Shown here in pieces: positions 8,822 to 17,716 of a stretch of DNA of 40,307 nucleotides (within the stretch, counting starts at the first letter, position 1; every line of letters starts with the position of its first letter). The stretch is from the NCBI GenBank assembly GCA_017935065.1, contig JAGBIF010000037.1:1-40307 (forward strand), read 5' to 3'. This DNA comes from Clostridia bacterium. Lineage in GTDB: Bacteria; Bacillota; Clostridia; Oscillospirales; CAG-272. The notes beneath the pieces were generated by a model, which saw only the letters and a list, made by a program, of their open reading frames with translations, had not been told where the DNA came from and searched no databases. The position numbers and the translations under genes were made by a program.

Positions 8822-8850
8822 TTGACAATATACATATTATATGATAAAAT
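8822..8850 (+). promoter_or_regulatory. Strong promoter of the corC leader
   Basis: TTGACA (8822-8827), 17 bases and TAAAAT (8845-8850). Transcription should start near 8857, well before the leader hairpin. It is divergent from the promoter at 8722-8750. Confidence 0.85.
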
Positions 8851-8906
8851 ACTCTACGAAAATGCAAGGGTGGCACCTGCCTTAGCATAAAACTCGGAGG
8901 AAAGTC

Positions 8907-8951
8907 ATGGACGACGGCGCGGATAGTTATCCCAATACCGTATCATTTTAA
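8907..8951 (+). CDS. Possible 14-residue leader peptide
   Basis: A 15-codon ORF reads MDDGADSYPNTVSF and stops with TAA. The start ATG stands six bases after a perfect GGAGG (8896-8900), which is a better ribosome site than that of the transporter gene downstream. The stop lies only seven bases before the terminator stem. The peptide is acidic at its N-terminus and has one proline. In E. coli, acidic and proline-rich starts such as MgtL cause ribosome drop-off at low magnesium, and a similar sensing role would fit a CNNM/CorC gene. That comparison is inference. There is no homology evidence that it is a conserved gene. Confidence 0.5.
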   Translation: MDDGADSYPNTVSF

Positions 8952-8957
8952 TAAATC

Positions 8958-9009
8958 AGGCCTAGTCGGGCGGGAATACTCGCAGTATTGTCCGACTAAG
9001 CCTTTTTTT
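8958..9009 (+). terminator. Terminator in the corC leader
   Basis: AGGC and TAGTCGG (8958-8969, with one mismatch) pair with CCGACTAAGCCT (8992-9003). AATACT and AGTATT form the inner stem above a small internal loop. Seven T residues follow at 9003-9009. Confidence 0.85.
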
Positions 9010-9042
9010 GCTTGAATTTTCTCAAAAAAGCGTGCAAATATT

Positions 9043-9061
9043 AATAGCCTTTGCGGCTATT
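9043..9061 (+). other. Hairpin upstream of the corC start
   Basis: AATAGCC (9043-9049) and GGCTATT (9055-9061) form a perfect 7-bp stem with a 5-base loop, directly before the AAAGGAA that is the only Shine-Dalgarno candidate. It has no T-run and is not a terminator. Confidence 0.6.
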
Positions 9062-9095
9062 TATTAAGAAAGGAACGAATAAAGCTTAAAAAATC

Positions 9096-10355
9096 ATGGA
9101 CAGTAACAGTATTATTCTACTCGCAGTAATTCTTTTTTGCGTAGTAATGAGTGCTTACTTTTCAGCAACCGAAACTGCCTTTTCCACACTCAACAGGATA
9201 AGGCTCAAAACTATGGCGGAGGACGGCAACAAGCGCGCGGCTAAGACGCTTAAGCTTGCGGAAAATTTTGATAGCCTGCTCTCGACGATACTTATCGGTA
9301 ACAATATCGTGAACATCCTAGCATCGTCGCTCGCAACGATTTTCTTTATAGCGCTGCTTGGCGGAGATCAGAATCTCGCGACCACGCTTTCAACCGTAGT
9401 GCTTACGGTCGTTGTGCTTATCTTCGGTGAGATTTCACCCAAGAGCATCGCGAAGGAGTCGCCCGAGAAGTTCGCTATGTTCTCGACGCCTATAATCAGC
9501 TTCTTTATTATGATATTCACCCCCTTGAACTTCATTTTCAAGCAGTGGAAGAAGCTTCTCTCCCACATATTCAAGGCAGAGGAGGAGGTCGGTATTACCG
9601 AGGAAGAGCTGATTTCTATAATCGAGGAGGCCGAGGAGGACGGAAACTTTGAGAAGTCCGAGACCGACCTTATCAGAAGCGCCATTGAGTTCAACGAGCT
9701 TGAGGTCGGTGATATCTTCACCCCCAGAATTGATATTACGTATGTCAAAAAGGACTATGAGCTTGAAAGAATAAAGGAAATCTTTATTGAATCGGGCTTC
9801 TCAAGGCTCCCCGTGTGCGAGGATGATCTTGACAACGTGTCGGGTATTCTCTATTATAAGGACTTCTTTACCAAGAAGTTTAACTCTATAGACGAGATTA
9901 CCAAGCCTGTCCTCTATGTAACCAAAAACCGCAAGGTCAACGAGCTTATGGCAGAGCTTCAGGAGAAGAAGCTTCACCTTGCTATCGTTGCCGACGAGTA
10001 CGGCTCAACGGCAGGTATCGTAACGCTTGAGGATATCCTTGAGGAAATAGTCGGTGATATCTGGGATGAGCATGACGACGTCGAGTTTGACGTGCGCGAG
10101 GTTGGCGAGGGCGAGTACATAGCCTCGGGTAAGGCAAACGCATCCAAGGTATTTGACGAGATCGGTATTGATGATGAGATAGATGCCCTTACTATAAACG
10201 GCTGGGCGATGAACGCGCTTGGCAGAATTCCCGCGGCGGGCGATAAATTTGAGGCTAACAATCTCTCTGCTACCGTCATTAAGATGAACGGAAAGCGTAT
10301 TGATAATATAAGACTTGTAAAGCTTGAGGTTCCCGAGGAAGAGGAAGAAGACTGA
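9096..10355 (+). CDS. CNNM/CorC (HlyC) family divalent-metal transporter
   Basis: The 419 residues have the full family layout. A CNNM/DUF21 membrane domain (about 1-190) has SAYFSATETAFSTLN, IGNNIVNILASSLAT and FGEISPKSIAKESPE. Two CBS domains follow (about 205-325, starting at VGDIFTPRIDI and ending with EYGSTAGIVTLEDILEEIVGDI). The CorC_HlyC domain (about 335-412) is last, ahead of an acidic tail. Bacterial members export magnesium or act in magnesium and cobalt tolerance; CBS domains sense Mg-ATP. The start at 9096 is forced by a TAA three codons upstream, yet it has no ribosome site at normal distance (AAAGGAA ends about 20 bases away). A hairpin (9043-9061) lies just before. This suggests control of translation as well as read-through. 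Confidence 0.92.
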   Translation: MDSNSIILLAVILFCVVMSAYFSATETAFSTLNRIRLKTMAEDGNKRAAKTLKLAENFDSLLSTILIGNNIVNILASSLATIFFIALLGGDQNLATTLSTVVLTVVVLIFGEISPKSIAKESPEKFAMFSTPIISFFIMIFTPLNFIFKQWKKLLSHIFKAEEEVGITEEELISIIEEAEEDGNFEKSETDLIRSAIEFNELEVGDIFTPRIDITYVKKDYELERIKEIFIESGFSRLPVCEDDLDNVSGILYYKDFFTKKFNSIDEITKPVLYVTKNRKVNELMAELQEKKLHLAIVADEYGSTAGIVTLEDILEEIVGDIWDEHDDVEFDVREVGEGEYIASGKANASKVFDEIGIDDEIDALTINGWAMNALGRIPAAGDKFEANNLSATVIKMNGKRIDNIRLVKLEVPEEEEED

Positions 10356-10382
10356 TAGCGTAAAAAAGCACTGCGCGACGGC

Positions 10383-10583
10383 GACCTGCGATAAAGCAGG
10401 TCAGCCGAACGATGTTTGCCCTTTCGGGCAAGTGATGTCGGCTCCGCCTAATGATGTAGCCTTCGGCAATGATGTTACGCCTAACGGCGTAGTGGGCAAA
10501 CATCACATCACTGCGACCAACGGGAGCAACATCATTATGAGCGAAGCGAATAACATTATTTTTGCGTAAGCAAAAACATCATT
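10383..10583. repeat. Array of small hairpins separated by TGATGT motifs
   Basis: This fills the gap after corC. It opens with GACCTGC/GCAGGTC (10383-10402). Next come units made of a GATGT spacer plus a mini-palindrome: TTGCCC/GGGCAA (10416-10431), GGC/GCC (10440-10448), GCC-TTC-GGC (10459-10467) and ACGCC/GGCGT (10477-10490). GATGTTTGCCC (10411-10421) has a perfect 11-base inverted copy, GGGCAAACATC (10494-10504), which closes the set into a branched structure. After that the spacer appears inverted, ACATCATT or ACATTATT, at 10529, 10553 and 10576, about 23 bases apart, around TTTTTGC/GCAAAAA. I see no gene here. It is a repetitive intergenic element of unknown role. Confidence 0.75.
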
Positions 10584-10646
10584 CATTTACCACCCGAAAG
10601 TGAATAGGGTATAACACAATATACCTTGCAGGCAAGATAGTGTGCA

Positions 10647-17613: not shown

Positions 17614-17716
17614 TTAACAGAGTAGGAATATATGCGTTTCAGTGCCGTACGGACGGGGAGTTGCCGACGGACGAAAAGATTTATCTTACGGTATATATTC
17701 CGCATCCCACTGTTAC
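17614..17716 (+). promoter_or_regulatory. Tetrahydrofolate (THF) riboswitch
   Basis: The segment matches the THF riboswitch (folT motif). ACAG (17617-17620) pairs with CTGT (17710-17713). The conserved AGAGTAG leads into GGAATATAT (17625-17633), which pairs with ATATATTCC (17693-17701). GCGTTTCAGTGCCG, ACGGGGAGTTGCCG and GACGAAAAG follow in order, and the 3' side ends CCGCATCCCACT. It senses reduced folates and lies directly upstream of a FolT transporter, as expected. I recognise the motif by eye; a covariance search would settle it. Confidence 0.88.

Follow-up and report, generated by a model that had tools for sequence, protein, structure and literature searches.

The leader ORFs with demonstrated Mg2+ sensing, mgtL and mgtQ, are enterobacterial and serve importers (PMC11282234, PMC8092293; these and the papers below are cited from the text portions available to us). 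In mgtL, ribosome drop-off alters the RNA structure and relieves termination (PMC11282234), and mgtQ likewise uses destabilization of the ribosome by an acidic chain (PMC8092293). In E. coli, ribosomes become unstable when they carry nascent chains rich in Asp/Glu, an effect termed intrinsic ribosome destabilization (IRD) that high Mg2+ counteracts; what IRD senses is the stability of the ribosome and not Mg2+ directly (PMC9718836). For exporters of the CorC kind, such control has so far only been proposed, through ribosome destabilization for CorC and through the leader ORF YoaL for mgpA: in Salmonella, expression of corC and mgpA rises at high Mg2+, the N-terminal region of CorC itself holds an IRD sequence, and the authors term the regulation of such genes unclear (PMC12421838). 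A ribosome can also act on a terminator directly. When the distance between a stop codon and the terminator downstream of it was shortened from 28 to 5 bp, termination dropped from ~90% to <10%, and this drop depended on translation; in amino-acid attenuators the stops are >20 bp from the terminator, and terminators less than ~100 nt from a start codon usually escape the ribosome unless pausing synchronizes ribosome and polymerase (PMC4824070).

The window analyzed here is the whole 40,307-nt stretch of contig JAGBIF010000037.1 (assembly GCA_017935065.1) from a Clostridia bacterium. It carries a short leader upstream of a CNNM/CorB-type gene, with these features:

8822-8850, + strand: promoter TTGACA-17-TAAAAT with a TG ahead of the second hexamer (11/12 consensus positions in a scan)
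8862-8888, + strand: 5′ leader hairpin directly ahead of the Shine-Dalgarno site (predicted fold)
8896-8900, + strand: GGAGG, ribosome-binding site of the leader ORF (read in the sequence; orthologues keep the site with changes)
8907 (ATG) to 8951 (end of TAA), + strand: leader ORF MDDGADSYPNTVSF, 14 codons with an acidic N-terminus (conserved frame)
8958-9009, + strand: intrinsic terminator (attenuator), hairpin 8958-9003 with U's to 9009 (folding, covariation)
9069-9074, + strand: AAAGGA, which lies 21 nt 5′ of the transporter ATG and presumably serves as the ribosome-binding site of this gene (read in the sequence)
9096-10355, + strand: CNNM/CorB-type Mg2+ transporter, the presumed regulated gene (Pfam CNNM, CBS, and CorC_HlyC)

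The elements named by the first-pass annotation, a near-consensus promoter, a leader hairpin, a GGAGG-led 14-codon ORF, a terminator, and the transporter gene, can all be read in the sequence. The promoter site alone is not significant, because shuffles give nearly as many such sites (two per 421 bases in the scan vs. 1.5 expected). Among the orthologous leaders described below, the best promoter score is at least 11, always with a 17-nt spacer, in 28/30; the low scores are 8 and 9, for L047 and L054. A 5′ hairpin is predicted in most leaders and differs in sequence and size by species; 5′ UTR folding gave a mean z of −1.5, with z < −1 in 20/28. The terminator had been called strong and placed seven bases past the leader stop, which agrees with our count of 6 nt, or 7 without counting a basal A-U pair, and with a stability of −23.4 kcal/mol (z −4.1; 0/200 shuffles equally stable). 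It is missing from the output of a simple consensus terminator scan, probably because of its stem mismatches. Taken whole, the leader (8857-9015) has ordinary stability (z −0.95; 29/200 shuffles equal or better). The ribosome site of the leader ORF is, as claimed, better than that of the transporter (GGAGG vs. AAAGGA 21 nt from the ATG); such long spacing is common in the source genus, where GAAAGG-like sites lie similarly far from CNNM starts. A further small hairpin, AATAGCC..GGCTATT (9044-9062), lies between the terminator and the transporter ribosome site, and in some species (e.g., L040, L044, and L055) a small hairpin lies between the AAAGGA-type site and the CNNM start.

By its sequence, the presumed regulated gene belongs to the CNNM/CorB group: it encodes a DUF21 membrane domain, a CBS pair, a CorC domain, and the Mg2+-site residues. 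The protein aligns with archaeal CorB 7m1t over residues 7-321 (E 3.5e-56), and in this alignment, compared by eye, the two TM1 serines and the FGEIxPK motif match the Mg2+-site residues of CorB named in PMC8242095. In Staphylococcus aureus, growth in high Mg2+ depends on the relative MpfA, and cells that lose it contain more Mg2+; the authors could not distinguish an exporter from a regulator of export (PMC6711546). As bacterial relatives are tied to Mg2+ export, we presume that the window transporter works in this direction. On the 3′ side of the gene (10370-10600), repeated short palindromic words (aatgatgt, gccctttcgggc) resemble interspersed repeats by eye. Elsewhere, the window holds a THF riboswitch (RF01831, 85.8 bits, 17616-17714) before the gene at 17632.

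A CNNM protein search of 60 genomes of the source genus gave matches at E 1e-40 in 56 of them, with 82 matches listed; the best 30 of these (57-100% identity, one per genome) form our orthologue set. A leader ORF occupies the same position in 30/30, and from its start codon to 12 nt ahead of the terminator (425 codons in total) frame 0 has no stops, while the other two frames have 19 and 22. Because all 30 orthologues carry the leader and stops are missing from one frame alone, the leader is conserved beyond chance. The first-pass annotation had staked its proposal in part on the frame and hairpins being kept among relatives, and the observation came through this check, with the frame kept in 30/30 and a terminator that covaries (see below). 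A nucleotide search for the leader across the genus returned mainly short fragments; the protein search followed by reading upstream succeeded.

The leader peptides are 14-27 residues long, with an acidic start and a variable C-terminal part. In residues 2-10, 118/270 are Asp/Glu and none is Lys/Arg, while from residue 11 onward Asp/Glu make up 14/287. A typical start is MDDGADADTC; L032, a relative of the window copy, reads MDADADSCYPNRIHI. The window peptide has three acidic residues only. It had been described as acidic and proline-containing: the acidic start is conserved in the genus, the proline is not, and what is conserved are the Asp residues, plus a Cys among the first 12 residues in 27/30 (the window copy and two others are without it). 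An early Cys also recurs in other leader types. Proline at the start is typical not of the genus but of a second leader type in relatives.

Judging from sequence, leaders of a similar kind are found ahead of CNNM genes beyond the source genus, in other genera, families, and orders. The first-pass annotation had suggested searching upstream of CNNM/CorC genes in Clostridia relatives with a covariance model, and this found leaders in the genus, in the family, and beyond. When run over 69 genomes, a covariance model built from the genus leader matched at E<1e-6 in 33 of them among the matches listed, once per genome; of these 33 matches, 30 come from the sequences used to build the model, and the three new ones (G026, G038, and G068) also precede CNNM genes, for a total of 33/33. 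Ten genus model matches were inspected, and three lie before CNNM genes (L310, L318, and L319). We rejected L311-L317 as CNNM leaders, with no CNNM gene in the stretch inspected; by eye, they look like terminators or chance (L312 ends at a contig edge, and at L313 and L314 the 7 residues are the tail of a longer frame, open for 64 and 69 codons upstream). A loose pattern search of the genus contigs found at least 118 stretches, and of the 80 listed ones searched with the model, L091, L092, L093, L121, and L158 scored E<1e-17, the next best being 0.004.

Among more distant CNNM genes of the genus, we sampled 20 upstream stretches out of the 52 other listed matches. Five of seven CNNMs at 45-47% identity have variant leaders (MDGDSSGNC, MEDADGNC, MDADSSDTNC, MDADSSEDDYC, and MDADSSDTDC) and two have none. 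A CNNM at 38% identity has the leader MDGDSSGAQDANC, four paralogues at ~30% carry other forms (MDPLPRSC, MDTIPRSC, MDTLPRC, and MISGDLDVPRS), and one carries MEGDSTTHH. Tandem CNNM pairs have a leader in 0/7 sampled upstream regions, and one remaining stretch is likewise without one. CNNM searches further out covered 70 genomes of the family, 59 of the order, and 99 of the class and added more leaders; in the class outside the order, 22 upstream regions were read and yielded leaders including MDSNSDADPANC, MDSDECDT, and MDSDAGDC. We also applied a fixed rule (a Shine-Dalgarno-like site, 8-60 residues, and Asp/Glu minus Lys/Arg ≥2 in residues 2-7), by which 20/75 further CNNM upstream regions from genus, family, and order have an acidic ORF and the other 55/75 do not. 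The controls gave 2/75 on the reverse strand, a mean of 1.4 and a maximum of 5 in shuffles (30 rounds), and 0/26 for other window genes. The rule misses some leaders visible by eye, and at least one match is likely false, L299, which resembles the end of an upstream gene.

In the family, the genus model matched at E≤0.01 in 39/295 genomes. Beyond three known genus leaders, 41 family matches were listed: by eye, 17 are acidic leaders before CNNM genes, one is an acidic leader before a P-type ATPase gene (L237), and 23 are not acidic leaders, so that 17/18 of the inspected acidic leaders precede CNNM genes. The best non-leader match, L227 (E 5e-9), was rejected as the acidic end of a 193-codon frame. 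At L237 (G115:C9, the same locus as L363), the leader MDDADSSDADRSNTYHK and a terminator precede a P-type ATPase that is most similar to Ca2+ types; this genome gave no CNNM match at 1e-60. Among 30 upstream regions from the P-type ATPase matches listed in the family, the fixed rule found an acidic ORF in 0/29 others, or 1/30 including L237, the query, which makes L237 an exception. Four of the other 23 matches (L250, L253, L356, and L357), from three genera, have in common a leader element situated close to P-type ATPase genes, with the sequence AATAAAGTCAAC ... CTGGCTTTATT ... GATGAGACTTATC ... GATAGGTCTTTTTTT; it has no Rfam match at gathering score and is possibly a metal-sensing RNA. Another recurring element, promoter-proximal and ending in a terminator, is found at L349, L351, L352, L358, and L361 in several genera of the family: GACGGTTAGC ... 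GGTTAAGAAATAACCGC ... GGGCGGTTATTTCTTTTTT.

The second leader type before CNNM genes combines Asp/Glu with Pro, often as CCC-CGA followed by AGT or TGT (MDEPPR, MDPLPRSC, and MEEPPLC). It occurs at L073, L074, L254, L256, L262, L268, L273, L274, L283, L288, and L294, often with no terminator found by our script. At L273 the leader ORF overlaps the transporter start, and at L274 an acidic leader continues in frame into the CNNM protein. CNNM proteins without a leader tend to have an acidic start of their own (MDSDSI and MDDGSI; e.g., L257, L260, L277, and L325). In an exploratory comparison, with related rows, starts set by script, and groups set by hand, CNNM N-termini had a mean of 1.04 Asp/Glu in residues 2-6 without a leader vs. 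0.67 with a leader (56 and 67 loci; Mann-Whitney p 0.006).

The terminator is the only consensus structure of the aligned genus leaders (RNAalifold). It has 98.1% of its cells paired and changes on both sides in 5/9 pairs, and its covariation score was reached by 0/500 shuffles. RNAalifold gave no antiterminator or aptamer, in the whole alignment or in slices without the 3′ arm, and, apart from the terminator itself, no conserved pairs inside the ORF or involving the 5′ arm in the genus alignment, where a misaligned fold could be missed. Over the leader, no Rfam family, M-box included, matched at gathering score, and three matches in a permissive search were all far below their gathering scores.

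The end of the leader stop lies between −10 and +27 nt relative to the first base of the terminator 5′ arm in 30/30 leaders, past that base in 15 and not past it in 15, and the ATG lies 52-66 nt from the terminator. For the variant leaders, a biased sample of 49 picked by hand after seeing the sequences, a script took the best hairpin with a T-run as the terminator and could call one in 38; the stop is upstream of the hairpin (≤12 nt) in 8, inside it in 14, and read through in 16. With hairpins of −11 kcal/mol or better (n = 31), these counts are 6 upstream, 13 inside, and 12 beyond. The script found no hairpin in the other 11/49, nine of them of the proline type.

Beyond the peptide, the leader ORFs are biased at the nucleotide level: in codons 2-10 of L029-L058 and relatives, the preference for GAC, TGT, GGG, GCG, and AGT exceeds what the peptide needs. 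In the first ten codons of the genus leaders, Asp is encoded by GAC 100 times and GAT 14 times (469 and 339 in CNNM genes), Cys by TGT in 30 cases to 0 (18 to 25 in CNNM genes), and Gly by GGG in 15/31 (15/664 in CNNM genes). The other Asp-type leaders (n = 30) use AGT for 35/50 Ser codons vs. 26/352 in twelve CNNM genes, and the proline-type leaders (n = 16) use CGA for 13/18 Arg codons vs. 12/165 in thirteen CNNM genes. The Pro codons in the first 14 codons of the latter are CCC 14, CCT 10, CCG 4, and CCA 1, compared with CCC 58, CCT 24, CCG 54, and CCA 4 in the 13 CNNM genes. Sensing of TrmD/m1G37 at Pro codons is a possible parallel for proline-type leaders; the window leader itself belongs to the Asp type. 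Shared ancestry may account for part of the bias within the genus; it does not easily explain its recurrence between families. A hairpin within the ORF is visible by eye in several leaders. In a synonymous-codon test for such hairpins, p<0.2 was reached in 16/30 and 14/29 leaders in a first window and in 8/30 and 17/29 in a wider one, with 49/200 for CNNM control segments; the structure excess over CNNM segments is weak (p 0.045 for the genus, 0.001 for the others), and an ORF hairpin explains the synonymous bias at best partly.

Building on the conserved frame, the acidic N-terminus, the covarying terminator, the stop position, the lack of a detected competing fold, and the association with CNNM genes, we propose, with a probability of roughly 0.56, that the leader is a ribosome-controlled attenuator. 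A finished ORF would block the terminator, ribosomes would drop off at the acidic codons at low Mg2+, and the Mg2+ exporter would be on at high Mg2+. RNA polymerase would transcribe the short leader, and a ribosome loading at GGAGG would meet an ORF whose opening codons are largely Asp. Once past the acidic codons, it would reach the stop at or inside the terminator, in relatives often running through it, so that the terminator would stay unfolded and CNNM would be transcribed. At low Mg2+, the ribosome would instead drop off the acidic codons (IRD), the terminator would fold, and the CNNM gene would be off. The acidic start is most likely what makes ORF completion conditional. Because the stop is at, in, or beyond the terminator and the alignment shows no competing fold, a ribosome that completes the ORF should keep transcription from terminating, and since finished translation would block the terminator, the predicted polarity is opposite to that of mgtL. 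We infer the polarity from the anatomy and Mg2+ as the signal from published ribosome behavior; translation of the ORF, antitermination by the ribosome, IRD, and the export direction are also inferred.

A transporter that is on with ample Mg2+ would fit the gene, since MpfA and corC/mgpA are linked to high Mg2+. With only 52-66 nt from ATG to terminator, shorter than ~100 nt, a pause would be needed, and the 5′ hairpin is a candidate pause or loading signal. In Firmicutes, moreover, transcription and translation may be less tightly coupled than they are in E. coli. We count the synonymous bias against a Mg2+ attenuator, as peptide sensing alone does not predict it, and the conserved Cys has no role in a simple IRD attenuator model. 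The low count of three acidic residues in the window peptide and the 55/75 further CNNM regions without an acidic ORF by the fixed rule also weigh against such an attenuator.

Several other readings share parts of this evidence. The first-pass annotation suggested Mg2+-dependent translation attenuation in the manner of mgtL. In such a reading, ribosomes would abort at low Mg2+, the freed leader RNA would form an antiterminator, and the transporter would be turned on. The part of this that stands is a conserved acidic leader ORF and terminator ahead of a Mg2+-type transporter, a parallel to which the proline of the window peptide adds; the mechanism itself fares worse, as RNAalifold finds neither a fold inside the ORF nor a partner for the terminator 5′ arm other than its 3′ arm in the genus alignment, the stops lie at, in, or past the terminator, where a finishing ribosome would block folding, and CNNM/CorB relatives are tied to export, which low Mg2+ should not induce. 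We regard it as unlikely. The same attenuator could also answer to a cue other than Mg2+, such as another metal on Asp/Cys (Ca2+ or Mn2+), a drug, or general ribosome instability, which we consider a minority possibility worth keeping in view. IRD reports ribosome stability and not Mg2+ itself (PMC9718836), an early Cys is present in 27/30 leaders and recurs in other types, and the signal need not be Mg2+, because the acidic leader at L237 precedes a P-type ATPase nearest Ca2+ types. This stands against the absence of the early Cys from three of the 30 leaders, the window copy among them, and against the near-exclusive company of CNNM genes, 33/33 for the strong genus matches listed (30 being the model's own) and 17/18 for the inspected acidic leaders of the family.

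A classical amino-acid attenuator sensing the charging of Asp- or Cys-tRNA would make sense of the Asp codons and the Cys codon close to the start, and of the GAC and TGT bias. We judge it improbable, however: no antiterminator was detected, the stop is too close to the terminator for a trp-type arrangement, which keeps >20 bp (PMC4824070), and the gene lies outside amino-acid synthesis and uptake, with stalling under starvation expected to switch it off. The synonymous bias would likewise suit the other suggestion of the first-pass annotation, a new metal riboswitch or aptamer with an incidental ORF, as would the 5′ hairpin predicted in most leaders and the slight preference of the ORF codons for local structure. 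That suggestion did not hold up well, since the terminator is the sole conserved fold, the 5′ hairpin varies in sequence and size, no Rfam family matches at gathering score, and the reading frame is strictly kept; we give it a very small chance. Least credible is a functional small protein acting in trans: the N-terminal segment is conserved, but the product has only 14-27 residues with an unconserved C-terminal part, and the ORFs of relatives often cross the terminator.

The proposed attenuator, with completion of the ORF keeping the terminator open, may extend well beyond the window. We put at somewhat under even odds the broader proposal of a widespread Clostridia class whose sensor would be an acidic nascent peptide and whose antiterminator would be the ribosome, with IRD of positive polarity turning on a Mg2+ exporter at high Mg2+. 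Such a class would have several forms (Asp-rich, and Asp/Glu-Pro with CCC-CGA) in front of the same gene family, would occasionally be borrowed by another cation pump, and could perhaps trade places with an acidic N-terminus of the exporter. If so, the weakness of the ribosome on acidic chains at low Mg2+ would be used with the opposite sign, for the control of export. In openly licensed literature (titles and abstract starts, preprints not covered), we found no description of an acidic CNNM leader, and within this scope two surveys of attenuators and candidate structured RNAs make no mention of hemolysin, CBS domain, CorC, or magnesium.

Among known systems, trp-type attenuators share with the window leader the pairing of a leader ORF and a terminator, and differ from it in that the window-type leaders have no codons matching the operon product, no detected antiterminator, and a stop too near the terminator. 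The mgtL leader of mgtA in enterobacteria and the mgtQ leader of mgtB in Salmonella are similarly short ORFs with early acidic residues before a Mg2+ transporter, and the sensor that we propose, ribosome destabilization, is theirs. However, the sequence is unrelated to mgtL, the window terminator is intrinsic while that of mgtL is Rho-dependent, and mgtQ acts on translation. Unlike in both, the stop is at or in the terminator, the predicted polarity is opposite, and the gene is a presumed exporter rather than an importer. The alternative folding by ribosome progress seen in mgtL was not detected in window-type leaders, where a misaligned fold could be missed. Of the same predicted polarity are, in Salmonella/E. 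coli, the IRD of CorC (YbeX) and the leader YoaL upstream of mgpA, CorC-domain genes proposed to be raised at high Mg2+; there, the IRD lies within the corC gene or, for YoaL, the leader overlaps the region directly 5′ of the gene, and the available text of PMC12421838 describes a transcription terminator for neither. In layout, the counterpart is pyrBI of E. coli, whose leader ORF extends up to or past an intrinsic terminator and thereby lets a nearby ribosome block its folding, as the stop positions suggest for 30/30 genus leaders and 38/38 scored variants (≤12 nt upstream, inside, or beyond). The pyrBI leader responds to UTP via transcription pausing in a 135-bp leader gene (PMC4824070); the window leader likely has an acidic-chain sensor, and a UTP response would not be expected before a metal transporter. 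Acidic Mg2+-sensing leaders and pyrBI-like attenuators are each already known; the openly licensed literature searched gave no instance of the two combined before a presumed CNNM exporter in Clostridia, with inverted predicted polarity.
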